Shown: positions 7,908-55,753 of the stretch, in pieces | Position numbering within the stretch: position 1 is the first letter of the stretch | How the letters are laid out: each line of letters begins with the position of its first letter | Assembly (NCBI RefSeq): GCF_027533505.1 | Contig: NZ_JAPZUB010000010.1 | Location: 1 to 64,000 of the forward strand | Direction of reading: 5' to 3' | Source of the DNA: Flavobacterium sp. | GTDB lineage: Bacteria > Bacteroidota > Bacteroidia > Flavobacteriales > Flavobacteriaceae | Length of the DNA: 64,000 nt | Made by a program: the position numbers and the translations under genes | Notes under the pieces: model-generated | What the model was told of the DNA's origin: nothing | The model's database searches: none | What the model saw: the letters and a program-made list of their open reading frames with translations, nothing else

Positions 7908-10069
7908 GAAGTTGTCATGTTAAAGGTTAAATTTCCACCTTCAGTCAAAGAACGAAATGGGATAACTGGAGTTAGTAATGGCAATCCGTTCCATTGATAG
8001 GCTGTAGCGCCGCAGGTATTTGAAGAGAAAGAATCTGCCTTAATTGTTAATGGCTTTTTACCTGTTGTTACGATGGCTTTTTTTACTTGTGGCGCACCCA
8101 AAACAACTTCGCCTGAAGCGGGATTCACCGGATAGAACCCCAAAAGTGTACACAAATACCAAGCACTCATTTGACCGCAATCATCATTTCCAATTAACCC
8201 ATCCGGTTGGGGTTTATGAAATTCATTCATAATACGTTTTAAATACTGGTGTCCTTGCAATGGTCGATCACTGAATGCATATAAATAGGCAATATGATGA
8301 CTTGGCTCATTACCATGGGCATATTGACCAATCATTGCTTCTTGACCAAGAAATTTATTAGGGGCCACAGCAGTTGTTGTAAAAAAAGTATCCAAATGGG
8401 TGGTTAAAGCGGTTTTCCCGCCAAATAAAGCGACCACGCCATTAAGATCATGTTGCGCAGGTGTCCAAAAATATTGCCACGCATTGGCTTCGGTATAATC
8501 ACCCGGATTGTTTAATGGAGAGGTTGCTTTGAGCGGATCAAAAGGAAAACGCCAATTTCCAAATTGATCTTTCCCTCTAAAAAGGTGTGTTTCAGGATCA
8601 AATAAATTACGATAGTACTGACTCCGTTTATAAAATTGGTTCGCGGTTTCGATATCACCAATTAATTGTGCAAAATAGGCCACACACCAATCATCATACC
8701 CACTTTCTAGGGTTCGCGAAACGGATTCGTCGGGAATCAAATCAAATGGATAATACCCAAAGCGGTTATAGACTTCCCAATCGGAATGAATGTGCGAACG
8801 AGTAGACGTTTCCACCATAGCACGCAACGCCCGTTGGGTGTCTATTTGTGCAACACCATTGACATAAGCACTCACAATCATCGGGATGGCATGATTGGCA
8901 ATCATACAATAATTATCTTGCCCCCAAACGGTCCAAATAGGCAAAAACCCTTTGGCTTCATGATGCGCCAGCATGGACTCAACAAGATCGGGAATGATTT
9001 CGGGGGTTATAAGTTGCAATAATGGAAAAGCCGCACGATAGACATCCCAATTGGATAAAGTAGAGTAATATGCCCGATTTACCGCCGTTCGAATCGAATC
9101 ATCCACAGCACGATACTTCCCGTCAACATCAGCCATGTTCATGGGTTGCAATAAAAGGTGGTATAATGCCGTGTAGGCCATCACTTTCTTCGACCGTGGG
9201 GCTTTTAGCGTCAGACGATTCAAATAATTTTCCCAAGTGTCTCGATTGTTAGCATACACCCGTTGAAAATCCCAATGAGGAATCTCCGCCATCAAATTGG
9301 CTTTTGCCCCTTCCACAGCAACCGAAGACAGGGCCACTTTTATTAGCAATTCTTTGGAGGAATCGAGTTGAAAGTCAAAAGCATACAAAGGGGCCTTATC
9401 AGCCTGATTATGAGCAATACTTCGTTTGTTTTGAAAAGGTTTACTAAAGTGAATGGTAAAAAAATAAACTCGATTCACCCAGTTTTGCGTTCGACAATAC
9501 CCACTGATTACAGAGTCATTCTCAATGGTTACTTCACTAGAAATCACGAGCGGTTTTGTTTCTTTTTCATCAAAAACAAATCGAAGTCCGTGACGAAAAT
9601 CAATGCGCACATGGGCCGAACGCGAAGGATAGCGGTATCGATGAAAGGCCACCCGTTCGGAGCAGGTTAAATCGACCGTAACGCCATCATTTTTACGAAC
9701 ATGATACCACCCGGGTTTTCCCTTTTCGGAAGATTTATCATAGGACCTAGCCTTCACTGAATCGGGTTGATGGATGGGTAAAATCAAAATATCACCCAGT
9801 TCATTAATCCCAGTACCGCTGAGGCGTGTTTGTGAAAATCCGAGTAAAAGGGTATCTCGATATTGATACCCGCTGGTATGAGACCACCCCCGATCGCGAT
9901 TATCAGGTCCGGGTTGCACCATTCCAAAAGGCATCGATGGACCGGGAAAAGTATGCCCAGTACCCTCAGTACCTATAAAAACGTTGACGAAGGATGTGGT
10001 CTTCTGTCCAAATAATGAAAAACCTCCCAAAAGTAACCCGAGGAGGAGTAACCATTTTCTTAATTCCAT
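7895..10069 (-). CDS. GH92 family alpha-mannosidase
   Basis: GTGHTFPGPSMPFGMVQPGPD and GNDDCGQMSAWYLCTLLGFYPVNPASG signatures. Confidence 0.92.
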   Translation of the reverse strand: MELRKWLLLLGLLLGGFSLFGQKTTSFVNVFIGTEGTGHTFPGPSMPFGMVQPGPDNRDRGWSHTSGYQYRDTLLLGFSQTRLSGTGINELGDILILPIHQPDSVKARSYDKSSEKGKPGWYHVRKNDGVTVDLTCSERVAFHRYRYPSRSAHVRIDFRHGLRFVFDEKETKPLVISSEVTIENDSVISGYCRTQNWVNRVYFFTIHFSKPFQNKRSIAHNQADKAPLYAFDFQLDSSKELLIKVALSSVAVEGAKANLMAEIPHWDFQRVYANNRDTWENYLNRLTLKAPRSKKVMAYTALYHLLLQPMNMADVDGKYRAVDDSIRTAVNRAYYSTLSNWDVYRAAFPLLQLITPEIIPDLVESMLAHHEAKGFLPIWTVWGQDNYCMIANHAIPMIVSAYVNGVAQIDTQRALRAMVETSTRSHIHSDWEVYNRFGYYPFDLIPDESVSRTLESGYDDWCVAYFAQLIGDIETANQFYKRSQYYRNLFDPETHLFRGKDQFGNWRFPFDPLKATSPLNNPGDYTEANAWQYFWTPAQHDLNGVVALFGGKTALTTHLDTFFTTTAVAPNKFLGQEAMIGQYAHGNEPSHHIAYLYAFSDRPLQGHQYLKRIMNEFHKPQPDGLIGNDDCGQMSAWYLCTLLGFYPVNPASGEVVLGAPQVKKAIVTTGKKPLTIKADSFSSNTCGATAYQWNGLPLLTPVIPFRSLTEGGNLTFNMTTSCEK

Positions 10070-11424
10070 AATGCATTCATTTCTTCAAGGGTTAAATGCT
10101 TGGTTTCGGGTACTTTTTTCCATACAAAAAAGAAAGAAAGCAAACACAGTAACCCAAAAAAGTAAAAAGGAAAAGCGCCATTGAAATACCTATCAATCCA
10201 TACATTTTCTACCATAAACGGAAAAAATTGGGTCACTAAAAAATTGGCAATCCATTGTATAAAAACACTGATAGCCAAGGCTAAACTTCGAATCGAATTT
10301 GGAAAAATTTCAGCCAATAGAACCCAAACAATGGGGCCCCACGAAATACTAAAAGAGGCCATAAAAAGTAGTAAAAAAGGTAGAACAAAGGTTTTTTCCC
10401 ATTCAAAATAAATAAATAGACCTACGGTCAATAAAGCCAAAGCCATTCCAATCGACCCTAAATACAACAACGGTTTCCGACCTTTACGATCCACCCATCG
10501 AATCGCTAAAAGTGTAAAAAATAAGTTGATTACTCCCAAAGTACTCGTTTCCAATAAAGAAGCATCTGTAGCGCTCCCCAAACTCTTAAAAATTTCAGGT
10601 GCATAATACAAAATAGCATTGATTCCTGTTAACTGTTGCAAAAGGGAAAGGCCAATTCCAACGCCTAAAGCCTTTTTATATTTGGGATTTCGTAAAGACT
10701 TCCAAGCTTGTGGACGCTCCGACTGCAGGGATTTTTCGATGTCTTCACGCTCTTTTTGCACATCTTGCTCACTATTAATAGCGTGTAAAACGGTCATTGC
10801 GCTCTGTGCTTTTCCTTGCATGAACAACCAGCGTGGACTTTCGGGAATGAAAAAAATGAAAATGAAAAATAACACCGAGGGAATCAATTCAGAACCAAAC
10901 ATCCAACGCCATCCAACGGTTAAATTCCACTGTGCATTACCTTGTAAGGCAATACCATAATTCACAAAATACACCAAAACAATTCCGATTACAATGGCCA
11001 ATTGGTAATGGCCGACCAGGGCACCTCGACGTTGGGCGGGCGCAATTTCAGCGATATACATCGGTACCACCATGGAGGCCAACCCTACTCCTATCCCGCC
11101 TATAATTCTGTAAATTATAAATTCGGTAAACGTGTCCGGTATTGCGGTTCCAATCGAATTGACAATAAATAAAAGAGCCGCCAGTATCATTGCTTTTTTT
11201 CGGCCCCAACGCGAACTACAGAAATTTGAGATTAAAGCGCCCAGTAAGCATCCCAGCAAGGCACTTGAAATTGCCCAACCCGTTTCCATAGGCGTGAGTG
11301 TAAAGTACCGTGTTAAATCGCCAATTGCCCCTGAGATTACGGCAGTATCATAGCCAAACAACAACCCTCCGAGGGCTGCGCTCAGGGTGATAAACCGAAT
11401 TTTTGTTGAATGTGTTGATTTCAT
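10060..11424 (-). CDS. MFS sugar porter
   Basis: GGLLFGYDTAVISGA, RWGRKKA, PESPRWL, PETK motifs. Confidence 0.92.
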   Translation of the reverse strand: MKSTHSTKIRFITLSAALGGLLFGYDTAVISGAIGDLTRYFTLTPMETGWAISSALLGCLLGALISNFCSSRWGRKKAMILAALLFIVNSIGTAIPDTFTEFIIYRIIGGIGVGLASMVVPMYIAEIAPAQRRGALVGHYQLAIVIGIVLVYFVNYGIALQGNAQWNLTVGWRWMFGSELIPSVLFFIFIFFIPESPRWLFMQGKAQSAMTVLHAINSEQDVQKEREDIEKSLQSERPQAWKSLRNPKYKKALGVGIGLSLLQQLTGINAILYYAPEIFKSLGSATDASLLETSTLGVINLFFTLLAIRWVDRKGRKPLLYLGSIGMALALLTVGLFIYFEWEKTFVLPFLLLFMASFSISWGPIVWVLLAEIFPNSIRSLALAISVFIQWIANFLVTQFFPFMVENVWIDRYFNGAFPFYFFGLLCLLSFFFVWKKVPETKHLTLEEMNALWN

Positions 11425-11427
11425 ACC

Positions 11428-12270
11428 CTACAAATGTTGTTGTAAAAACTGTTTCATTTCCAAGTTAATGTCCCATTGCGAAGCCAAAGGTTGTTGGGTA
11501 AAAGGTGCCGAGGGCATATAGGGATAGGGACCAAATTCGGGAGTTACTGTAAAAATCGAGCAATGTTGTTTTTCATGAAAAGCCACTATTGCTCTCCACC
11601 ATTTCAAATACAACCTGCGATAGGATTCCCACTCGGGAGCGAAAGGATGGTTGACTTGTGGTCCTTGTTCAAATCCGATTCGAGCATGCAGATGTTTGAC
11701 AAAAGGAGTAAGACGATCCAAATGAGCTTGTTGGTCGTGTAATGTACTTTCGGAAACCACACAGAAATGGGAATAATCGGCGACCAGACCAAGAGCGGGA
11801 AACACTTCCAAATAATCCAAAACGGTTTTTAGATGAAACGAGAAACGACCGCGATGAATTTCATGCCAAATGGGTATCCCTGTTTTCTTTGCAATTTGTT
11901 GTGTCGTCTCGATAATTTGGCAATTTTCAGAAAAACTGTAGTAATCTTTTCCCGTGTGTGAATTGATGGCATAGGGTTGTAATGACGCTACCATTTCCAA
12001 CCGATCAATCAACCGTGCTGTGTAATCTGCCATTCCTTTTTCGGAAGGCGATACTACATTTTGGGCGATCACCATAAAATGAGGATGTGATGTCGAACGG
12101 ATGGTAGCGCAAGCCGCTTGAAACTCTGCAATAAATTGGTCATCATGCGGAAAATTAATCTCTACCCCATCATACCCGTGGGCTAGGGCGCGGTTTAAAA
12201 ATTCGGAAGCGGACATTGCTTCACAGCCCCAATAGGGACACAAATAGCGAATTTCCATGTTATTGCGCAT
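11428..12270 (-). CDS. sugar phosphate isomerase/epimerase-like TIM barrel
   Basis: GYDGVEINFP, HEIHRGRFSFH, DYSHFCVVSES motif pattern. Confidence 0.75.
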   Translation of the reverse strand: MRNNMEIRYLCPYWGCEAMSASEFLNRALAHGYDGVEINFPHDDQFIAEFQAACATIRSTSHPHFMVIAQNVVSPSEKGMADYTARLIDRLEMVASLQPYAINSHTGKDYYSFSENCQIIETTQQIAKKTGIPIWHEIHRGRFSFHLKTVLDYLEVFPALGLVADYSHFCVVSESTLHDQQAHLDRLTPFVKHLHARIGFEQGPQVNHPFAPEWESYRRLYLKWWRAIVAFHEKQHCSIFTVTPEFGPYPYMPSAPFTQQPLASQWDINLEMKQFLQQHL

Positions 12271-25287: not shown

Positions 25288-25775
25288 GGCAGTGTTCAGC
25301 CCCGAAGGGTCGGGATCAGTATACAGTAAACAGTGTACAGTATACAGCCCCGAAGGGTCGGGGCAGTGGACAGTGTTCAGTAAGGGCTCAGCAGCTCAGC
25401 TTCTCAGCGGCTTAGGAGCTTAAAAAAACAGTGTACAGTGGGCAGTGTTCAGTAAGGGCTCAGCCCCGAAGGGTCGGGATCAGCTTCTCAGCGGCTTAGG
25501 AGCTTAAAAAAACAGTGTACAGTGGGCAGTGTTCAGTAAGGACTCAGCAGCTCAGCTTCTCAGCGGCTTAGGAGCTTAAAAAAACAGTGTACAGTGGGCA
25601 GTGTTCAGTAAGGACTCAGCAGCTCAGCTTCTCAGGAGCTTAGCAGCTTAAAAAAAACAGTGTTCAGTAAGGACTCAGCAGCTCAGCTTCTCAGGAGCTT
25701 AGCAGCTTAAAAAAACAGTGTTCAGCCCCGAAGGGTCGGGAGCAGCTTCTCAGTGCCTCAGTAACTCAGCAGCTT
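25288..25775. repeat. composite intergenic repeat array A (7-bp CAGTNNN and 8-bp GCTYAGNN modules, CCCCGAAGGGTCGGG hairpins)
   Basis: repeated cagtgtacagtgggcagtgttcagtaagg + gctcagcagctcagcttctcagcggcttaggagcttaaaaaa. Confidence 0.9.
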
Positions 25776-39497: not shown

Positions 39498-40428
39498 GTT
39501 CAGCCCCGAAGGGGCGGGAGCAGTAGGCAGTGGGCAGTGTACAGTATACAGTGGGCAGTGGGCAGTGGGCAGTGGACAGTGGACAGTGTACAGTGGGCAG
39601 TATACAGTGTACAGTGTACAGTGGGCAGTAAGGGCTCAGCCCCGAAGGGTCGGGATCAGTATACAGTGTTCAGTGTACAGTGTACAGTGGGCAGTAAGGG
39701 CTCAGCAGCTCAGCTTCTCAGCGGCTTAGGAGCTTAAAAAGCAGTGGGCAGTGTTCAGTGTACAGTGTACAGTGTACAGTGTACAGTGTACAGTAAGAGC
39801 TCAGCTTCTCAGCTTCTCAGGAGCTTAGCAGCTTAAAAAAACAGTGTTCAGTTAGAGCTCAGCAGCTCAGCTTCTCAGGAGCTTAGCAGCTTAAAAAAAC
39901 AGTGGACAGTGTACAGTGGGCAGTGTTCAGTGTACAGTGTACAGTAAGAGCTCAGCAGCTCAGCTTCTCAGGAGCATAGCAGCTTAAAAAACAGTGGACA
40001 GTGTACAGTGTACAGTTAGAGCTCAGCAGCTCAGCTTCTCAGGAGCTTAGCAGCTTAAAAAAACAGTGTTCAGTAAGAGCTCAGCAGCTCAGCTTCTCAG
40101 GAGCTTAGGAGCTTAAAAAAACAGTGTACAGTGTACAGTGGGCAGTGGACAGTGGACAGTGGACAGTATACAGTAAGGACTCAGCAGCTCAGCTTCTCAG
40201 CGGCTTAGGAGCTTAAAAAGCAGTGTACAGTGGGCAGTGTTCAGTGTACAGTGTACAGTGTACAGTAAGAGCTCAGCAGCTCAGCTTCTCAGGAGCTTAG
40301 CAGCTTAAAAAAACAGTGTTCAGTTAGAGCTCAGCAGCTCAGCTTCTCAGCGGCTTAGGAGCTTAAAAAAACAGTGGGCAGTGTACAGTGGGCAGTAAGG
40401 GCTCAGCAGTTCAGCATCTCAGGAGCTT
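39498..40428. repeat. composite intergenic repeat array B, same module set as array A
   Basis: long runs of CAGTGTA/CAGTGGG heptads alternating with GCTCAGCAGCTCAGCTTCTCAG(G/C)... octads and AAAAAA tails. Confidence 0.92.
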
Positions 40429-40436
40429 TCAAATCC

Positions 40437-40524
40437 GTGCTATATCAGTGCTATATCCGTGCTATATCTGTGCTATATCCGTGCTATATCAGTGCTATAT
40501 CCGTGCTATATCCGTGCTATATCG
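40437..40524. repeat. 8 tandem copies of 11-bp GTGCTATATCN
   Basis: units start at 40437, 40448, 40459, 40470, 40481, 40492, 40503, 40514. Confidence 0.95.
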
Positions 40525-44882: not shown

Positions 44883-46475
44883 ATGGCCGATAAAAAAGTA
44901 AAAGCAGATATTAACTTCGAACAAGAATTATGGAAGGCAGCCAATGAGTTACGTGGAGCTGTCGCCGAAAATCAATATAAAGACTTTGTGCTTCCCATGA
45001 TTTTCTTGAAGCATATGTCGGAACGTTATGAGATACGCCGCGAGGAACTGCAGTCGTTAATGGAGGATAAAACGTCCAGTTATTACACTGAAGATCGAGA
45101 CGAACGCCATTATGTCTTAGAAGACTCTGATGAATATCTTTCGCAAAACATCTATATTGTTCCTGAAAAAGCCCGTTGGAATTATTTAATGGCGAATGCC
45201 GAACAAGATAATATTAAAGTTTTGGTTGATGATGCGTTCGAACTACTGGACGCTACACTTGGTCAGTCTCGACCTGACTTAAAAGGAATACTACCCCGTA
45301 TATTTGTTAAGAGTCAGTTAACTGCTCGACAAGTTGGCGGATTGATTAATTTACTATCTCACCCCAAGTTATCGCAAAAAGAGAATCCCGAAAGTGATGT
45401 ATTGGGTCGTGTGTATGAATACTACATTGGTAAGTTTGCCTTGGCAGAGGGCTCTGGTGCGGGACAATTCTTTACTCCCGGGAGCATTGTGCGTTTGATG
45501 GTTGAAATGATTGAACCTTATGAAGGAAAAATCTTTGATGCCGCCTGTGGTAGTGGCGGTATGTTTGTTCAGTCCTTAAAATTCTTGGAATCCCATGGTG
45601 GTGACAAACGCAAAATTTCTATTTATGGGCAAGAGCGATATGACGGTACATTGCGCTTGTGCAAGATGAACTTAGCTTTACGGGATTTATCCTTTGATGT
45701 CCGCTTGGGCGACTCGTTGTTGCAAGATAAGTTTCCTGATTTGAAAGCAGATTATATCATCGTTAATCCGCCTTTCAATGTGAGTCAATGGCATCCCGAA
45801 GACTTACCGGAGAACGACCCCCGCTTGTTTGGACCCAAAGAAGAATTTACTACCGATGGCAATGCCAACTTTATGTGGATGCAAACCTTTTGGAGTCATT
45901 TGAGTGACCGAGGAACCGCCAGTGTAGTGATGGCAAATGGGGCTATGACCTCAAACAATAAGGGAGAGAAGAATGTACGGGAGTTTATGGTAGACAACCA
46001 CATGGTAGATTGTATTGTACGTTTACCCGATAAGTTATTTTTAACGACGGGAATACCGGCTTGTATTTTTATTTTGAGTAAAAACCGGGATGGTAAAGAC
46101 GGCGAGCACCGCGAACGCAAAAATGAAATTCTCTTTATTGATTGCAGTAAAATGGGAACCATGGAAAGCCGAAAGCTACGGATATTTACCGATGCCGATA
46201 TCGATCGTGTGGCAGCGACCTACCATGCTTGGCGCAATGTGAATGCTGACAAGTATCAAAATATTGACGGCTATTGCTATGCAGCCTCATTAGAGGAAGT
46301 ACGCCAACAGGACTATAAACTGACCCCCGGAATTTATGTAGGTACCGAAGAAGTGGAAGACGATGGGATTCCCTTTGAAGACAAGATGGCAGGTTTACAG
46401 GCTACCTTGCAAGAGCAGTTTACCAGAGGGAATGAGTTGCAAGCAAAAATATTGGAGAATTTTGAAAAGTTATAG
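44883..46475 (+). CDS. hsdM: type I restriction-modification DNA methyltransferase subunit
   Basis: GQFFTPGSIVRLMVEM, DAACGSGGMFVQS, IIVNPPFN. Confidence 0.95.
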   Translation: MADKKVKADINFEQELWKAANELRGAVAENQYKDFVLPMIFLKHMSERYEIRREELQSLMEDKTSSYYTEDRDERHYVLEDSDEYLSQNIYIVPEKARWNYLMANAEQDNIKVLVDDAFELLDATLGQSRPDLKGILPRIFVKSQLTARQVGGLINLLSHPKLSQKENPESDVLGRVYEYYIGKFALAEGSGAGQFFTPGSIVRLMVEMIEPYEGKIFDAACGSGGMFVQSLKFLESHGGDKRKISIYGQERYDGTLRLCKMNLALRDLSFDVRLGDSLLQDKFPDLKADYIIVNPPFNVSQWHPEDLPENDPRLFGPKEEFTTDGNANFMWMQTFWSHLSDRGTASVVMANGAMTSNNKGEKNVREFMVDNHMVDCIVRLPDKLFLTTGIPACIFILSKNRDGKDGEHRERKNEILFIDCSKMGTMESRKLRIFTDADIDRVAATYHAWRNVNADKYQNIDGYCYAASLEEVRQQDYKLTPGIYVGTEEVEDDGIPFEDKMAGLQATLQEQFTRGNELQAKILENFEKL

Positions 46476-46477
46476 TA

Positions 46478-46514
46478 ATAAAAAAAGCAACTCTAATAGA
46501 GTTGCTTTATTTCC
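46478..46514. terminator. bidirectional hairpin after hsdM
   Basis: AAAAAAAGCAACTC-TAAT-AGAGTTGCTTTATTT. Confidence 0.65.
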
Positions 46515-46636
46515 TAGGAACTAAGAAGTAAACTTTAAATACTAGAAAAACCTAATAATTAAGAGGAGAACTACTGTAGTTCCTTTATGTATTTTTACAA
46601 TAAATGTTCATAATAATGGTACAAATATAACAAGTT

Positions 46637-48394
46637 ATGATTAAAGTTAGACCAAAAATTGTATTAAATTTAATAGAAAGTTTTTTCTATGAAAAATCAT
46701 TAGAACTATTACATAGAAATACAATTGATACAAATAGACTTAAACTAAGTAATCCTTTATTAATAATAAAGGAACTAGTAAGTGTTTGTAGTGATTTATC
46801 AAAAAATAAACTTAAAAATCATGATTATGCAACTAGTGTAATAAAAGAAACTTTAAAGTTAACTAAAGATAATCATCATTTAAAATCGACAGTTATTAGC
46901 ATAGATTACTTTAATGCTTTGATTGAGAAATCAAATAAAAATGATTATTTAAAAATTGTTCATGCTGGAAATTTAATTCTAAATGATAATAAAGATTACA
47001 TAAACACGCTTTTTGAAGAGATTCATAAAGTAATAGTCGCAAAAAGAACAGATTTAGTCTTGGACTATAATGACATGAAAAAGTTCAGCAGACTAATTGA
47101 GTATTTATACGTTGAACTTTGTTCAATCGGATATTCAAAATTTTATTTATATCGTTTTTTAACTGCAATATTTTCTGGCGTTGATGCATTAGATTTTGAT
47201 GCTCGATACAGTATCATGAAATCATTAAAAGATAGGTCATTAGAGAAATTCGAGGTGATTTTTGGTTTGGATTCTACAAAATTTCATAAAACAAAAGTGA
47301 AATTATTAACAAATGATTTAAAGATTTTAAATAAAAGTGAAAAAACGAGGATTTCAGTTATTACAAAAAGTAAAATTGATCCATTTTTTACTGAGAACGA
47401 TGAACATTTATTATTATCAATAAATGTAAAGACAAAAGACTATTATCAAGCTTTAAATTTGTCAAGAAGTAAGCTATTAAATATTTTAGATGTTTTGTAT
47501 TTGGGACACAGTGACAAAAATCTATCATTAATAAAGGATTGTTTCATTGTTGGTGCCAATCAGCCTGATAAAGCTAGTTCATTACCTACAATGTATCAAA
47601 TTGATGGTTATTATAAGAGTAATAATAAAGTTTACAAAGTGTTAATTGAAAAATTTAAAAAAATTAATAATTCAAACGTAAACGAAGAAACAAAAAATAA
47701 AATTAATTCTGGCATTCGATATTTGAGAATGGGAGGTGAATCAAGTGAAATAATTAATAAATATATAAATTATTGGATAGGTTTAGAATATATATTTTCA
47801 ACTTATGAAGCAGACTCTTATACAATTGGCAGATTAAAAGAATATTTTAAAAGAGCTCATGCACTTATTTACATAAAAAGAAATATTAATGATTTTCATA
47901 AGGATATAAAAACACTTAACGAACATCACTTAATTCCTGATTATAATGATGATTTGGAATATTTAAAAATAGAAAACAATTACAATTTACTTATAGCGTC
48001 TTCAGCCTCTCCATTACTTAGATTTAGAGCAGAATATTTTAAGAATTTACTAATGGATATTGAAAAAGTTAGAGCCGCATTAGAGAATCATCAAAAAAAC
48101 CTTGAATGGAATCTAACTAGGATTTATAGAATAAGAAATGAAATTGTTCATAACGCTGCAATTAAAGAAGATATTGCCGTGCTTACTTCTCATTTACGAT
48201 ATTACCTAACATTCATTATAAATGGCTTAATAGACTTTATAATTAACAATCCAAAAGATGTAAATAATGATGATCAAATTACTATAGATGATTATTTTAT
48301 CTTTCAAGATTTAACATTGTCAAGTTTAGAAAAAAAAGGAGTTGAACTAAATGATTTAATTACCATAAAAAACCCTTTGGAAGTAATAATATAA
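46637..48394 (+). CDS. large HEPN-like protein embedded in type I R-M locus
   Basis: C-terminal RIYRIRNEIVHNAA (Rx4H HEPN-type motif); AT-rich coding sequence. Confidence 0.7.
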   Translation: MIKVRPKIVLNLIESFFYEKSLELLHRNTIDTNRLKLSNPLLIIKELVSVCSDLSKNKLKNHDYATSVIKETLKLTKDNHHLKSTVISIDYFNALIEKSNKNDYLKIVHAGNLILNDNKDYINTLFEEIHKVIVAKRTDLVLDYNDMKKFSRLIEYLYVELCSIGYSKFYLYRFLTAIFSGVDALDFDARYSIMKSLKDRSLEKFEVIFGLDSTKFHKTKVKLLTNDLKILNKSEKTRISVITKSKIDPFFTENDEHLLLSINVKTKDYYQALNLSRSKLLNILDVLYLGHSDKNLSLIKDCFIVGANQPDKASSLPTMYQIDGYYKSNNKVYKVLIEKFKKINNSNVNEETKNKINSGIRYLRMGGESSEIINKYINYWIGLEYIFSTYEADSYTIGRLKEYFKRAHALIYIKRNINDFHKDIKTLNEHHLIPDYNDDLEYLKIENNYNLLIASSASPLLRFRAEYFKNLLMDIEKVRAALENHQKNLEWNLTRIYRIRNEIVHNAAIKEDIAVLTSHLRYYLTFIINGLIDFIINNPKDVNNDDQITIDDYFIFQDLTLSSLEKKGVELNDLITIKNPLEVII

Positions 48395-48396
48395 GT

Positions 48397-49680
48397 ATGC
48401 CAAACAACCGGAAAACATATAAACTAGGAGATATTGCTGATATTCAAAACGGTTATGCTTTTAAAGCGGCTGAATTAGTGGATAAAGGAATTCCTGTGAT
48501 TAAAATTAAAAATATAATATCTCCAAATGTATCCATAGAAGATGTTAGTTATTATAATGGGAAATTAACAGATAATATAAAAAGGTATATTATCGAAAAA
48601 GGTGATTTTTTAATTTCAATGACTGGTTCTACTGTGAATGTAATGAGTTCGGCAGTTGGCAAAATGGGTAGGTATAGATTAGATGACAGATCATTAATTA
48701 ATCAGCGAGTTGGTAAAATATATTTGACTAAACCAGATATTGCATCATTTGAATATGTATGTCAATATTTAAATAGATATGAAATTCATTATAATTTAGC
48801 ATTAAACGCTACAGGTAGTGCAAATCAAGCAAATATTTCACCTGCACAAATAAAGGATATTGAAATATCATTACCTTCATTAGAAGAACAAAAATCAATA
48901 GCCGCTATCCTCTCCGCAATCGACGACAAAATCGAAAACAACCTCGCCATCAACAAAACCCTTGAAGAAATGGCTATGGCGTTATACAACCACTGGTTTG
49001 TCGATTTTGGACCGTTTCAAGACGGTGAGTTTGTGGAAAGTGAGTTGGGAAGAATTCCTATGGGTTGGGAAGTGAAGAGGTTGGATGAGATTTGTAATAT
49101 TACCATCGGTAGAACTCCACCCAGAAAAGAACCAAAATGGTTTTCTCAAAATGAAGGAGTAAAATGGATTTCAATAAAAGATATTGGTAACTCTGGTATA
49201 TACATTTCAAAAACAAGCGAATATTTGTCTGAAGAAGCCATAAAGAAGTTCAATGTGCCTGTTATTAATCCTAATACAGTTATATTGAGTTTTAAACTAA
49301 CCGTTGGAAGAGTAGCAATCTCTTCTGAAAGAATGCTTTCGAATGAAGCAATAGCTCATCTAAATAGAAAAGATTCCGAAATTCCAGTAGAATATATATA
49401 TTCATACTTAAAGTTATTTGACTATAATTCATTAGGTAGTACTTCATCAATTGCTACTGCTGTTAATACGCAGACGATAAAAGCAATGAAAATAATAATT
49501 CCGGATAAAAAACTATTGAATAGTTATTTTGAAAAAGTAAATACAATTTTTGAACAAATAAAAATAAATCAAAATGAAAACCAAACCCTAACCCAATTGC
49601 GTGATACGTTGTTGCCTAAGTTAATTAGTGGTGAGGTGCGGTTGAAAGCGTTTCGGGAGGAAAATGAAAAAAGGGCTTAA
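48397..49680 (+). CDS. hsdS: type I restriction specificity subunit
   Basis: two TRDs; LPSLEEQKSIAAILSAIDDKIENN and TLTQLRDTLLPKLISGEVRL conserved regions. Confidence 0.93.
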   Translation: MPNNRKTYKLGDIADIQNGYAFKAAELVDKGIPVIKIKNIISPNVSIEDVSYYNGKLTDNIKRYIIEKGDFLISMTGSTVNVMSSAVGKMGRYRLDDRSLINQRVGKIYLTKPDIASFEYVCQYLNRYEIHYNLALNATGSANQANISPAQIKDIEISLPSLEEQKSIAAILSAIDDKIENNLAINKTLEEMAMALYNHWFVDFGPFQDGEFVESELGRIPMGWEVKRLDEICNITIGRTPPRKEPKWFSQNEGVKWISIKDIGNSGIYISKTSEYLSEEAIKKFNVPVINPNTVILSFKLTVGRVAISSERMLSNEAIAHLNRKDSEIPVEYIYSYLKLFDYNSLGSTSSIATAVNTQTIKAMKIIIPDKKLLNSYFEKVNTIFEQIKINQNENQTLTQLRDTLLPKLISGEVRLKAFREENEKRA

Positions 49681-49689
49681 CGCCCTTTT

Positions 49690-50574
49690 TTAATACTGTA
49701 TTTCTGCCAGATAGTCTGTAAACTTTTTGTTATTGGAGTTGGCGATTTTCTCTGTTTGCTGCTCCAATATATCAGGGGTAATGAATTCAAAGTTCGCTTT
49801 TAAATTTGAATAGGTAATCTCAAACAAATTGTGTGCTGGGGTGTGCAATGGCGGCTCTTCAAATACGATTTGAATGGGTTTAACCCCTACTCCCGTTTTT
49901 TTGGCAAAATATTGTAAAGCTGCGTGTATCGACTGGGTTTCATAGACATTATTGACCACACTGTGTTCTGTCAAATTGAAATCTAAGGTTTGTATCGCGC
50001 TAATGTCCCCGTTCTTGGTAATTAATGCCACATCGGTATCTTTAAAAACTCCAAGAAAATGTAACGGATCAAAATAGAATTTTAAATCGGCTTTATCTTC
50101 TAAACCTTCTTTTTCAAAAGCCGGTTTAATTTTCTGCGCAAAGGTCTGCGTTTTTACTTCGACAACTTCAAAAGGCTCCCCTACAAAGTGAAGAAAATAG
50201 CTTTTAAACTTTTCAATTGTAAAATTAAAGGGTAAAGAAGCAGGCTCTGAAAAACTCAGTATACCGTTATTGTAGGCATTCAAATAGGAAAAGTATTCTT
50301 TGGAAAAAATAGACTTTTCAAATTCAATGGTGATTTGATTTTTTTGGAGTGCTTTATTGGTTTCGTTAACGCTATTTTTAATTTGCTGAATACTCTTTTT
50401 CGCTAATGTGCCAATGCCTATTTGCGACGGAGCTAATTTATCGAGCAAATTCAATTTACTTTTAGAATAATGAAAAAAAACTTGGTTCTCGGTTACAGCC
50501 AATAACGCCACCACCACTTTCTCTAGAGAGACTGGATTGGTTTGAATGCTAATGGTACTGAAAAAAGTTTTCAT
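49690..50574 (-). CDS. hypothetical protein, likely partner of the HipA-like gene
   Basis: 294 aa, immediately downstream of HipA C-terminal fragment on the same strand. Confidence 0.5.
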   Translation of the reverse strand: MKTFFSTISIQTNPVSLEKVVVALLAVTENQVFFHYSKSKLNLLDKLAPSQIGIGTLAKKSIQQIKNSVNETNKALQKNQITIEFEKSIFSKEYFSYLNAYNNGILSFSEPASLPFNFTIEKFKSYFLHFVGEPFEVVEVKTQTFAQKIKPAFEKEGLEDKADLKFYFDPLHFLGVFKDTDVALITKNGDISAIQTLDFNLTEHSVVNNVYETQSIHAALQYFAKKTGVGVKPIQIVFEEPPLHTPAHNLFEITYSNLKANFEFITPDILEQQTEKIANSNNKKFTDYLAEIQY

Positions 50575-50576
50575 TA

Positions 50577-50795
50577 TTAAAAAAAATCTTTTGTTACTAA
50601 AATAGTTTCTCGAACCGTATTTATTCGTGCTTCGTTATTTAGATATAGGTGAATCCGCTGTGCTAAATTAGGTGTAAGATCCCAAATATCAGTTAATTGT
50701 TCAATAACCCCATCAATAATCGGCTGATGAGAAACTTGGAGCAAAGGTATAAAATTATCTACAGTTTCCACGTTCCGTCAAGACGACAATAGCGA
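50577..50795 (-). pseudogene. C-terminal fragment of a HipA_2-type kinase-like protein
   Basis: frame reads ...RLDGTVETVDNFIPLLQVSHQPIIDGVIEQLTDIWDLTPNLAQRIHLYLNN...; no good start codon; N-terminal piece found at 52367..52681. Confidence 0.5.
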
Positions 50796-51037
50796 AAAAC
50801 GAAACTGTTATATACATACTAAAATAAACGTATTTCGTGTAATTCAAACGCCAACTTTATACTTACTAGCCATAGATATTAGGGGATATTTTAATTTTAC
50901 TAACAATTCAAAAATTTTATTAAAATTTAGAAAAAATAGGCATGTATTTTGTAGAAGTTCTTTTAAAACAATTGTACTTTTAGAATTTATTGATTGTAAA
51001 AAAATATTCCTATTATTGTATAATATTTTACATATTT

Positions 51038-51571
51038 ATGTTTGAAACCATCGTTCATCAAACTCTACAAAATAAAAACAATAATGAAGAAGTAGAGGCT
51101 AATGGCCCTTATCCAACAACGGACTTAAAAAATTCTTTTTTAGGTACGGGTTATTATTTTTGGGATTATCATATTGAACTAGCTAAGTTTTGGGGTAAAG
51201 TTAGATGTAATAACAAATACATTATTTGTGAAGGTGAATTAAAAGTGGATAAAAATGATTTTTTAGATCTAGTTGGTAGTAGAGCTGATCAGATTCATTT
51301 TTTAAATTTAGTTTCAACTTTAAAGATGCAAAATCAATCAATTGGAAAAACAATAGAAGCACTAAAAGCTCTAGAAAAAGAGCAAAAAGGAATTTTTCCT
51401 TACAAGGTAATAAGAGTTATGGATAGTTTACCCAAAAAGAAATTTCCTCAAACTCAACATAAATTTTCAAACAAGGAAAATTACTCAATTTTGACACCAA
51501 TGTACATTATTTGTTTGTTAGAGAAAAATAAATTAATTTTGCCGACGTTTAAAGTTATTTTTTCTAATTAG
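51038..51571 (+). CDS. putative ADP-ribosyltransferase-fold toxin (CmdT-like)
   Basis: FLGTGYYFWDYHIELAKFWGK resembles the G-x-G-x-YFW...A..WA segment of ART-like domains; ATG at 51038. Confidence 0.55.
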   Translation: MFETIVHQTLQNKNNNEEVEANGPYPTTDLKNSFLGTGYYFWDYHIELAKFWGKVRCNNKYIICEGELKVDKNDFLDLVGSRADQIHFLNLVSTLKMQNQSIGKTIEALKALEKEQKGIFPYKVIRVMDSLPKKKFPQTQHKFSNKENYSILTPMYIICLLEKNKLILPTFKVIFSN

Positions 51572-51589
51572 ATTTAATACCTTTACATA

Positions 51590-51967
51590 ATGGTTATGGA
51601 AAAAAAAATAATGCAGAGCAACGCAATAGATTTATTGAATAAACTTATTGCAAAAAAACCACAAAAGGTTCAGGAAATCATTGAGTTCAGTTCAAATACT
51701 GATATCGATGGACCAACCTATGAAGAATATTTATCTTCATTACATGAGCATTCTATTTTAAATAATTGTTCTGTTAGCTCCGAAGTAGAAGTTGATTATA
51801 TGCGTATTCAGTCAGCATACATAGATATACCTTTAACTTTTGAAGTAGAACAGGAGCCACCTATCCTGATTAAGACACGTAAAAGAAAAAAAGACTCTGT
51901 AATTTCACAGAGTCTTTTTTTTTATATAATATTGTACAATGTTAGAAGCAAAAAGAGCAGAATTTAA
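51590..51967 (+). CDS. putative antitoxin of TAC module
   Basis: small ORF between ART-like and SecB-like genes, overlaps chaperone start by 29 bp. Confidence 0.5.
   Translation: MVMEKKIMQSNAIDLLNKLIAKKPQKVQEIIEFSSNTDIDGPTYEEYLSSLHEHSILNNCSVSSEVEVDYMRIQSAYIDIPLTFEVEQEPPILIKTRKRKKDSVISQSLFFYIILYNVRSKKSRI
51886..51923. terminator. terminator-like hairpin inside antitoxin 3' end
   Basis: AAAAAAAGACTCTGTAATTTCACAGAGTCTTTTTTTTT. Confidence 0.7.
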
Positions 51968-52370
51968 ATTTGTAAAGTTTCATATTCCTCGTTTCAATTA
52001 TAATGAAACCAGAGAAAATCAAGGTGAGCTAAAAATGCAGTTTAGTCCCCGAGGAATATATTCTCCAAAAGAAGGTAAATTTGAACTTTCAATATCTTTT
52101 ACTGGATTCGAAAAAAATAAAAAGAGAAAACCTGTTATTTCTCTTGATTGTGTTGCGGAGTTTATTTTTACTAATAAAATAGGCTTTGAAGAAATTCCTG
52201 ATTATTTTTATACAAATTCGGTTGCTATAGTTTTTCCATACCTCAGGTCTTTTATCAGTACTGTTACATTACAAGCGAATACAGGTGTAATTATGCTTGG
52301 AGTTATGAATTTTATGGAAATTACTCAACCACTTAAGGAAAATACAACTGTAGCAGAAAGTACTATTTAA
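51939..52370 (+). CDS. SecB-like chaperone of TAC module
   Basis: NSVAIVFPYLRSFISTVTLQANTGVIMLGVMNF resembles the SecB FPY-R..IS.........L...NF segment. Confidence 0.65.
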   Translation: MLEAKRAEFKFVKFHIPRFNYNETRENQGELKMQFSPRGIYSPKEGKFELSISFTGFEKNKKRKPVISLDCVAEFIFTNKIGFEEIPDYFYTNSVAIVFPYLRSFISTVTLQANTGVIMLGVMNFMEITQPLKENTTVAESTI

Positions 52371-52753: not shown

Positions 52754-55753
52754 ATGACCACAGAAGCCGTAATAGAACAAGCAACCATTGACTGGTTAAC
52801 CGATTTAGGGTATACACACAAACACGGGACAACCTTTACCTTTCCTGAAAATGAAGTCGTAGATAAAGCTACTTTGTTGGCATTTATACAGCAGCAACAC
52901 CCGCATTTGCCTGCGGAGTTGTATCCCTTAATTGTAGCGGAGTTTGTCAATAACAAAGGCGCTGATTTGTTGTATCGCAACCGTGATTTTCATTTGAAGT
53001 TAACCAAAGGTTTGGACTACGAATACCAAGATGCTAACGGTAATGAAAAAGCAGTACACGTCTACCCTATTGATTTTCAAAACCCTGAAAAGAATACGTT
53101 TTGGGTAGTCAATCAATTGAGCATTAAAGGCAAAAACAAACGCCGTCCAGATGTGATTGTGTACATTAATGGTTTGCCTTTAGTTGTTTTTGAATTAAAG
53201 AATTGGTTTGATGAAAACACTAATTTGCAAGAAGCATTTAATCAAATTCAACATTACACCAAAGATATTCCGTTGTTGTTTGAATACAACGTAGCCACAA
53301 TTGTAAGTGATGGTAACGAAGCCCAACACGGTATGTATAATGCTTCTAACGAATGGTATGCGGCCTGGAAAAGTATTGATGGGACGACCATTGTTGATAA
53401 CGATTTTCAAATGCATACATTGTTATTTGGTTTGTTCCCCAAAGAGCGGTTATTGAATTACATTAAAAACTTTGTCTTTTTTGAAGACCATAACGGCACC
53501 TTGATTAAGAAAGGCGCTAAATACCATCAATTCTTTGGCGTTAACTTTGCTGTTGAAGCCGCTATAAAAGCCATTCGTCCCTATGGAGACGGTCGTATTG
53601 GAGTGATTTGGCATACCCAAGGAAGCGGAAAAAGTATATCCATGGCTATCTATGCCGGAATCTTACGCAGCTTACCCGAATTGAAAAACCCCACTATTGT
53701 AGTACAAGTTGATCGAAGTGATTTGGATTTTCAATTGTATGAAAACTTTGTATTGGCCAAAGACTTAGTAGGCGATGTACAACATGCTGATTCTACGGAT
53801 GATTTAAGACGACTGCTTTCGGCAGGAAGTGGTGGTGTCCTATTTACTACCATAGAAAAATTTCGATTGAAATCAGGTAATGAGGATTCGTTAGGCGAAT
53901 TAGAACATCCTATTTTATCGGAACGTGAGAATATCATTGTGATGGCGGATGAAGCCCACAGAACGCAATATGGCTTACTAGATGGTTTTGCCTCTAATTT
54001 ACGTAAGGCCTTGCCGAATGCTTCGTTTATTGGATTTACAGGAACGCCAGTAGATAGCAAAGATGCTGATACGCAAGAAGTGTTTGGAGAAACCATTCAC
54101 GTGTACGATATTAAACAAGCAGTAGATGATAAAGCGACGGTTCCGATTTATTACGAACCTCGATTGGCCAAACTGCATTTAGCCAATGAAAATTTAGACT
54201 CCGAAGTCGATGCTTTAACATGGGAACAAGAAGACAGTTCTAACTTAAAATGGGCGGCTTTAGAAGATGCCGCAGGTTCGCAAGAACGAGTAGAAAAGAT
54301 TGCTAACGATATTTTAAAGCATTTTACTAATCGTACCGAAACCTTACCCGGGAAAGCGATGATTGTTTGTATGAGTCGTCGGAACAGTGTGAAAATGTAT
54401 GATGCCCTTACACAACTTGAAGGCTGTCCTGAAGTTGCGGTAGTAATGACCGGGAATATTTCTAAAGACCCTGTGGAATGGAATCCGCACATTAGAACAC
54501 AAGAAGCTACAGAAGCTTTGAAAAAGCGCTTTAGAAATCCGAAAGACCCTTTACAGTTAGTAATAGTTCGTGATATGTGGTTGACTGGTTTTGATGCACC
54601 TTGTGTGCATACGATGTACGTCGATAAGATCATGAAGGGGCATAATTTAATGCAAGCTATTACGAGAACCAATCGCGTATTTAAAGACAAACCTTCGGGC
54701 GTAATTGTAGATTACATTGGAATTGGCGACCAGTTACGAAAAGCAACCGATAAGTACACTGGTGGCGGTGGTAAAGGAGAGCCGACTATTGATATGGAAC
54801 AAGCGATGCATATGTTTTTCAATCAAATAGAGGCTTGCAAAAATATGCTACCCGAAAACACCGATTACAGCCAGTGGAAAGCCTTGCGAGAAAGTGATAA
54901 AATGTTGTTGGTAAAACAAGCTTTAAATGCCTTATTGAAATACGATGAAGTGGCGGAGCGATTCATGGTTGAAGAAAAGAAACTGACTGGTTTGTTATCT
55001 ATTGTAAAATCGCAACCTGAAATTCAGGAATATGCCATTGATATTTTGTTTTCGCAACATGTATCGAAAGCGATACGAAATGCCAAAACACCTGGGGGAA
55101 ACATCAGATCGACACAAAACGAGATCAAAGAGTTGATTAGTAGAAGTATCGAATCGGATGATATTATCGATGTATTTGCCATGGCAGGTATTGAAAAAGC
55201 CGATATTTCTATTTTAGACGAGCAGTTTTTGTTGGGTGTAAAAAAAGACAAAGACAGTATTGCTATCAAAATTGAATTATTGAAGAATATTTTGAAAGAC
55301 GAAATTAGAATGCGTTTACCTCAAAATATCAAGAAATATACTTCGCTAAAAGAAGAATTAGAAAAAGTAATCGACCGTTATCATGCCAATGCTATTGATT
55401 CGTACACCACAATTGCCGAATTAGTAGAGCGTGCCAAAGAAATGCAAGACGAAGACAAGCGTAAATCGGAATTAGGTTTGTCGGATGAAGAGTTGGCATT
55501 CTATGATATTCTAGCGGCCAAAAAAGACATCATCAACGAAGCTGGCCCCATTCAAGACGTGGTACACAACGTAGTCAAAGCCGTAAAAAGCAACTTACAA
55601 ATCGACTGGACCAACAAAGAAGACGCTAAAGCCGCGATTCGTTTGGCTGTTAAAAAAGAACTACGTGGAAAGGTCAGTATGTTAGAATTAAACGCTATTC
55701 TTCAAGACATTATGGAACAGGCAGAAGGGCAGTTTAAAGAGTGGAGGGCTTAA
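52754..55753 (+). CDS. hsdR: type I restriction endonuclease subunit R
   Basis: VIVYINGLPLVVFELKN, HTQGSGKSISM, DEAHRTQYG, GFTGTP. Confidence 0.95.
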   Translation: MTTEAVIEQATIDWLTDLGYTHKHGTTFTFPENEVVDKATLLAFIQQQHPHLPAELYPLIVAEFVNNKGADLLYRNRDFHLKLTKGLDYEYQDANGNEKAVHVYPIDFQNPEKNTFWVVNQLSIKGKNKRRPDVIVYINGLPLVVFELKNWFDENTNLQEAFNQIQHYTKDIPLLFEYNVATIVSDGNEAQHGMYNASNEWYAAWKSIDGTTIVDNDFQMHTLLFGLFPKERLLNYIKNFVFFEDHNGTLIKKGAKYHQFFGVNFAVEAAIKAIRPYGDGRIGVIWHTQGSGKSISMAIYAGILRSLPELKNPTIVVQVDRSDLDFQLYENFVLAKDLVGDVQHADSTDDLRRLLSAGSGGVLFTTIEKFRLKSGNEDSLGELEHPILSERENIIVMADEAHRTQYGLLDGFASNLRKALPNASFIGFTGTPVDSKDADTQEVFGETIHVYDIKQAVDDKATVPIYYEPRLAKLHLANENLDSEVDALTWEQEDSSNLKWAALEDAAGSQERVEKIANDILKHFTNRTETLPGKAMIVCMSRRNSVKMYDALTQLEGCPEVAVVMTGNISKDPVEWNPHIRTQEATEALKKRFRNPKDPLQLVIVRDMWLTGFDAPCVHTMYVDKIMKGHNLMQAITRTNRVFKDKPSGVIVDYIGIGDQLRKATDKYTGGGGKGEPTIDMEQAMHMFFNQIEACKNMLPENTDYSQWKALRESDKMLLVKQALNALLKYDEVAERFMVEEKKLTGLLSIVKSQPEIQEYAIDILFSQHVSKAIRNAKTPGGNIRSTQNEIKELISRSIESDDIIDVFAMAGIEKADISILDEQFLLGVKKDKDSIAIKIELLKNILKDEIRMRLPQNIKKYTSLKEELEKVIDRYHANAIDSYTTIAELVERAKEMQDEDKRKSELGLSDEELAFYDILAAKKDIINEAGPIQDVVHNVVKAVKSNLQIDWTNKEDAKAAIRLAVKKELRGKVSMLELNAILQDIMEQAEGQFKEWRA

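Follow-up and report, generated by a model that had tools for sequence, protein, structure and literature searches.

As a HEPN ribonuclease of phage defence, ApeA was reportedly introduced by Gao et al. in 2020, and structures of Ec1ApeA to Ec4ApeA make up PDB entries 9hxb-9hxn. In the literature searched, ApeA is a one-gene system, and no account was found there of what keeps it harmless or of how it assembles. AbiF, which is thought to be the ancestor of Cas13, belongs to a different HEPN family. This ribonuclease is neutralised through direct binding by a neighbouring ncRNA, RCd22 (PMC12373285). Another HEPN ribonuclease, PrrC, occurs in a type I restriction-modification (R-M) locus together with EcoPrrI. 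Type I R-M operons also harbour other defence genes, including the rlo genes, TgvAB and DarTG2 (PMC11411939, PMC12255303), and ApeA was noted inside epsilonproteobacterial R-M operons in 2013 (PMC3710099), so the R-M embedding of ApeA is not in itself new. In short, ApeA, the pairing of a HEPN protein with an ncRNA (AbiF) and the presence of defence genes inside R-M operons are already known separately.

The locus described here lies in a stretch of 64,000 nucleotides from Flavobacterium sp. (contig NZ_JAPZUB010000010.1, positions 1 to 64,000), which is called the window below. Its relevant features are the following.

44883-46475, plus strand: hsdM, type I methyltransferase subunit, 530 aa (N6_Mtase, E 3.2e-95; HsdM_N, 1.2e-21)
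46476-48396, no strand: inserted cassette (ncRNA gene and apeA), exactly from the hsdM stop to the hsdS ATG
46480-46506, minus strand: predicted intrinsic terminator of the ncRNA, 9-bp stem and T-run, from the sequence and conserved in locus L054
46480-46586, minus strand: putative structured ncRNA, body and terminator, about 110 nt (model R1, 22.4 bits; model R2, 24.5 bits; fold z -4.59)
46622-46629, minus strand: predicted -7 box of the ncRNA, TATATTTG, of Bacteroidota type (TAnnTTTG pattern)
46637-48394, plus strand: apeA, predicted HEPN ribonuclease, 585 aa (matches to PDB Ec2ApeA 9hxd, by profile and to PADLOC)
48134-48151, plus strand: HEPN active-site motif RNEIVH (R500-H505), with invariant R500, N501 and H505
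48397-49680, plus strand: hsdS, specificity subunit, 427 aa (Methylase_S, E 1.3e-35)
50990-52370, plus strand: PD-T4-9 system in a second slot, between hsdS and hsdR (PADLOC PD-T4-9_A, 2.6e-38; PD-T4-9_C, 8.2e-39; the middle ORF is called B from its position alone)
52754-55753, plus strand: hsdR, restriction subunit, 999 aa (TIGR00348, 584 bits against a cut-off of 284.6)

A preliminary description of this DNA had noted an AT-rich ORF of 585 codons between hsdM and hsdS, and this is correct: 46637-48394 is a real ORF with an ATG start and a GC content of 24.3%, compared with 40.6% for the window. The gap before hsdS, given there as 3 nt, is in fact 2 nt (GT). The same description took the product for an ApeA-like HEPN ribonuclease in a type I R-M locus, which homology now bears out. 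With the single sequence as query, phmmer matched Ec2ApeA (9hxd) in the PDB at E 5.6e-13 over residues 16-572, and a profile from 31 relatives matched Ec1ApeA, Ec2ApeA, Ec3ApeA and Ec4ApeA at E values of 1e-30 to 1e-39 (best 1.1e-39). The PADLOC ApeA model recognised the window protein (4.7e-5) and 23 of the 31 family members. In a search of its own genome the gene was found once, and no relative of ApeA was found among viral contigs or INPHARED phages.

The Rx4H motif that had first suggested a HEPN protein is present, within RIYRIRNEIVHNAA at residues 495-508; it does not stand at the very end of the protein, as had been stated, since about 77 residues follow it. R500, N501 and H505 are invariant in the alignment of 31 relatives, and RNEIVH aligns with RNLIVH of Ec2ApeA; judged by this conservation, Rx4H is not a chance motif. 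The motif arginine reads alanine in chain 9hxe_A. The HEPN assignment had been made to depend on a helical bundle at the C-terminus, and the AlphaFold2 model (pLDDT 87.2) predicts a helical C-terminal part, with RNEIVH at the end of a helix spanning residues 475-506. A Foldseek search of the PDB with the full model gave no significant match, the 9hx ApeA entries being absent from its results. By sequence homology, therefore, the product is a full-length ApeA that shares with Ec1-Ec4ApeA the C-terminal HEPN region with RN-x3-H and has a predicted ribonuclease activity in phage defence.

The R-M genes around apeA are intact in length and domain content. Orthologues of hsdM in nine other Flavobacterium loci are about 83-89% identical, and one more reaches 71%. 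Across the Flavobacterium loci compared, nucleotide identity extends to, or nearly to, the end of hsdM, breaks, and restarts at the start of hsdS, where the first 29 bp (in several loci) and the central and end repeats are conserved while the target recognition domains (TRDs) vary. What lies between the two genes differs greatly from locus to locus. For instance, OLD-like ATPase/TOPRIM proteins are found in L037, L038 and L041, another ATPase (AAA_15) in L040, a Schlafen AlbA_2 protein in L042, a KAP NTPase in L043, an AbiE pair in L046 and, in L039, an ApeA that is only 26% identical to that of the window. The 777-aa protein in L045 has no family assignment, and its gene may be a new defence gene. 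In L044 the junction is empty, the hsdM stop codon TAG abutting the ATG of hsdS, and it is from this that the insert of the window can be set at 46476-48396. Furthermore, the first TRD of L044 is 80% identical to that of the window, so cargo and TRD are not linked. Two Flavobacterium species have in this slot ApeAs that fall into separate, well supported clades of the tree. From these comparisons, the hsdM-hsdS junction is a cargo slot with exchangeable defence genes; the rlo genes, TgvAB and DarTG2 are likewise cargo of hsd operons, whereas the slot here is hsdM-hsdS and the defence gene is swapped between related species.

A second variable slot lies between hsdS and hsdR (window 49690-52370) and holds PD-T4-9 with two minus-strand genes of 294 and 64 aa, neither of which gave a confident family match; in relatives this slot is empty or contains a GIY-YIG-like gene, a different ORF or a transposon-like pair. 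Elsewhere in the window, arrays of the heptamer CAGTGKA in units of 58-99 nt occur at 39521-40396 and at 25480-25725, the two places being related, and an eleven-base tandem repeat, ATCCGTGCTAT, is present in 8.3 copies at 40433-40523.

The cassette holds more than apeA. A hairpin at 46478 had been assigned to hsdM as its own terminator, an assignment that does not survive comparison with other loci. The leader of apeA in the window, with this same hairpin, is shared with the closest stand-alone ApeA (L054); in five loci with other cargo (L038, L040, L042, L043 and L045) a few nucleotides separate hsdM from the cargo, and in the empty L044 hsdS follows hsdM directly. The long T-run of the hairpin is on the minus strand, where it closes a structured RNA that is read away from apeA. 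Judged from this layout, the hairpin ends an ncRNA gene opposite apeA, whose transcript would probably run from about 46615 to 46480 on the minus strand.

Of 35 Bacteroidota apeA genes, 33 are preceded by such a gene on the opposite strand, the 33rd (L087) having been found by a model; of the two exceptions, L080 has an apeA lacking its 5′ half, and L064 has an intact one. In 32 loci the minus-strand leader consists of a closing stem, a variable apical part, a short linker and a terminator. Promoters of Bacteroidota are laid out as TAnnTTTG with a TTTG upstream, and in 28 of the 32 loci a TAnnTTTG box precedes the stem by 31-67 nt, where chance would give about 10%; many of these boxes have a TTTG another 23-24 nt upstream. 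In the paired positions, G-U cells outnumber A-C cells 31 to 4, which indicates that the functional strand is the minus strand, the one with the terminator T-run. Two other identities for this gene were considered and dropped: a small protein-coding gene, as stops break all three minus-strand frames, and a mimic of tRNA, as the RNA folds into one long hairpin with no cloverleaf.

Covariance models support the same boundaries. Model R1 was built from nine sequences of one clade, the window copy being left out of training, and in a scan of 769 kb it matched the window at 46480-46586, exactly the predicted ends. It also found untrained copies upstream of apeA in L054, L056, L059, L060, L063, L066, L068, L071, L074, L076 and L079. 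In whole genomes the apeA site was its best match in 12 of 14 cases, with no match in the other two; a second match of 35 bits in L093 lies between unrelated genes and was rejected as chance. Under strict filters R1 found nothing in 396 genomes of the phylum, in a search that also missed the window's own copy. Model R3 recovered the untrained L057, L058, L061, L062 and L084, and the apeA site was its best match in 9 of 10 whole genomes, three of them untrained. The ncRNAs of L065, L082, L083 and L085 were not recovered by the models, and that of L086 was recovered weakly. The RNA subgroups behind these models were first recognised by eye, and 9 of the 12 group-B sequences were used for modelling with RNAalifold, three register-shifted ones being left out.

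Changes on both sides of a pair are seen in 13 of 22 pairs in alignment A7 (16 sequences) and in 17 of 22 in A8 (23 sequences, window included), counts that are raised by the fitting of both alignments to the model structure; none of 500 shuffles reached them, and slid controls were far lower. Without the terminator, the folds have a mean z of -2.59, 84% lying below -1.64, and the z of the window copy goes from -4.59 to -2.30. No Rfam family scored above threshold, sub-threshold sRNA matches being the only ones returned. These results bear on a further explanation, in which the upstream element is no more than a terminator working in both directions and shielding apeA from the genes around it. 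A hairpin resembling a terminator is almost invariably there, and that of the window is also followed by TTTATTT on the plus strand; nevertheless, the covarying closing and inner stems lie outside the terminator and are accompanied by a conserved promoter, which makes this explanation highly improbable.

It is also conceivable that a real ncRNA regulates apeA in cis, by promoter interference or as an antisense of overlapping 5′ ends, without binding any protein. No more than about 60 nt separate the ncRNA promoter from the start codon of apeA. In many loci the TTTGCAT motif is on the other strand the ATGCAAA of the apeA start, so that the two 5′ ends could overlap. However, the conserved part that covaries is the body of the hairpin, away from apeA and with conserved loops specific to each group, and an antisense role requires no such structure. 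Regulation in cis thus appears rather unlikely, if worth keeping in mind.

The types of RNA track the clades of ApeA whether or not the genes are embedded in R-M loci, and the moving unit is thus the RNA together with apeA. Among 34 close ApeA relatives surveyed in GTDB genomes, the order hsdM-apeA-hsdS recurs in F. amnicola and in Lutibacter and Algibacter, the latter two in a different R-M family. The apeA genes of L061 and L083 adjoin hsdR, and that of L081 sits, frameshifted, between hsdS and hsdR; the remaining relatives have no hsd gene nearby. In L081, from Chryseobacterium, the gene is split in two ORFs (9971-11762) and the ncRNA is kept. On the ApeA tree the R-M label requires 6 changes for 6 labelled rows, equal to shuffled labels. 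Even in the nearest relative of the window ApeA (59% identical), the flanking sequence retrieved contains no hsd gene. Within this survey, ApeA is thus not regularly associated with type I R-M.

This distribution is important for the function proposed in the preliminary description, which saw in the protein a guard of R-M integrity. According to such a model, the R-M complex would hold ApeA off and release it when a phage disables R-M, as in the precedent of PrrC (PMC3710099). The position of apeA within hsdM-hsdS, here and in F. amnicola, Lutibacter and Algibacter, would suit this model, and the 2013 HEPN survey put the idea forward in general terms. Nevertheless, embedding that is repeated but not obligate is evidence against a dedicated guard: most relatives are outside hsd loci, and the few in or beside them are scattered over the tree. 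Moreover, unrelated defence genes occupy the same slot, and the cassette carries a putative RNA partner of its own. PrrC also differs in having an ABC NTPase domain and being held by its own R-M complex, whereas no Pfam NTPase domain was found in the window ApeA or 30 relatives, and ApeA mostly stands alone. A PrrC-like guard is therefore improbable.

RNA genes are also found beside ApeA outside Bacteroidota. The ApeAs of Enterobacterales plasmids have in common, on the strand opposite apeA, a promoter (TATAAT), a core conserved as CTGTGG...TCCCGGA within GGCTCT...AGGGCC, and a terminator, at which conservation stops. Among these proteins, that of L089 gives an end-to-end match to Ec4ApeA of 1168.6 bits, so that the gene for an RNA, absent from descriptions of ApeA as a one-gene system, accompanies a close homologue of Ec4ApeA too. 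Hairpin RNAs occur at the same place in Pelobacter (L090), Burkholderia (L098) and two Bacillota (L088 and L091). The RNAs of different phyla are alike in layout, a likeness that does not imply common descent. In both Bacillota loci the upstream hairpin carries CTGAGCGAATGCCTGCC and is read away from apeA, possibly as a further RNA type. The three Enterobacterales plasmid loci L089, L092 and L099 all have the anti-phage gene ppl next to apeA. Across four bacterial phyla, nearly every ApeA examined thus has a small structured-RNA gene as its neighbour. This RNA gene is apparently undescribed: no conserved ncRNA partner of ApeA was found in the literature searched, the coverage of which was incomplete.

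A close parallel is AbiF/AbiD with the abiF RNA motif (RF03085; RCd22 in C. difficile), likewise a HEPN ribonuclease with an adjacent structured ncRNA and its terminator. The abiF RNA, located upstream, is directed towards the toxin gene, but the ApeA RNA points away from apeA; the abiF motif has 36 nt, compared with about 100 nt for the ApeA RNA. RF03085 gave no match at E values up to 5 for the window copy and L070, and none at the gathering score in eight loci. By analogy with AbiF and its RNA antitoxin, ApeA is probably a system of RNA and protein, in which the ncRNA most likely binds ApeA and restrains or organises the ribonuclease. Hence our preferred reading, with a probability of about 0.55, is that the cassette in the hsdM-hsdS slot is a single abortive-infection module composed of a HEPN ribonuclease and a divergent ncRNA that controls it. 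That ApeA is a ribonucleoprotein defence in general, across several phyla, each with a dedicated and co-diversifying ncRNA that binds and controls the HEPN ribonuclease, is a broader claim for which the odds seem about even.

In such a module, binding of the ncRNA would keep the ribonuclease off or assemble it in a switchable form, as the AbiF ncRNA does. Infection would then activate ApeA, perhaps through deoxydinucleotides from degraded phage or host DNA, and the activated enzyme would cut RNA and stop growth. According to its title, a preprint (reference 19 of PMC13405049) reports that deoxydinucleotides activate ApeA, which would be a trigger other than the R-M integrity that a guard would monitor. 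If this is so, the breakdown of DNA during infection, aided by restriction, could set ApeA off. Cleavage by R-M could add to the deoxydinucleotide signal, and ApeA would consequently back up R-M without touching it.

The hsdM-hsdS junction is a simple place to mine for new defence systems. In addition, a conserved ncRNA beside nearly every ApeA would make ApeA the second HEPN family, after AbiF, to be paired with an RNA. Such a partner would change how experiments on ApeA are read, especially those in which the protein alone is overexpressed; and if ApeA is generally a two-component system, the RNA would have been overlooked because the native upstream region would carry it along in cloning.
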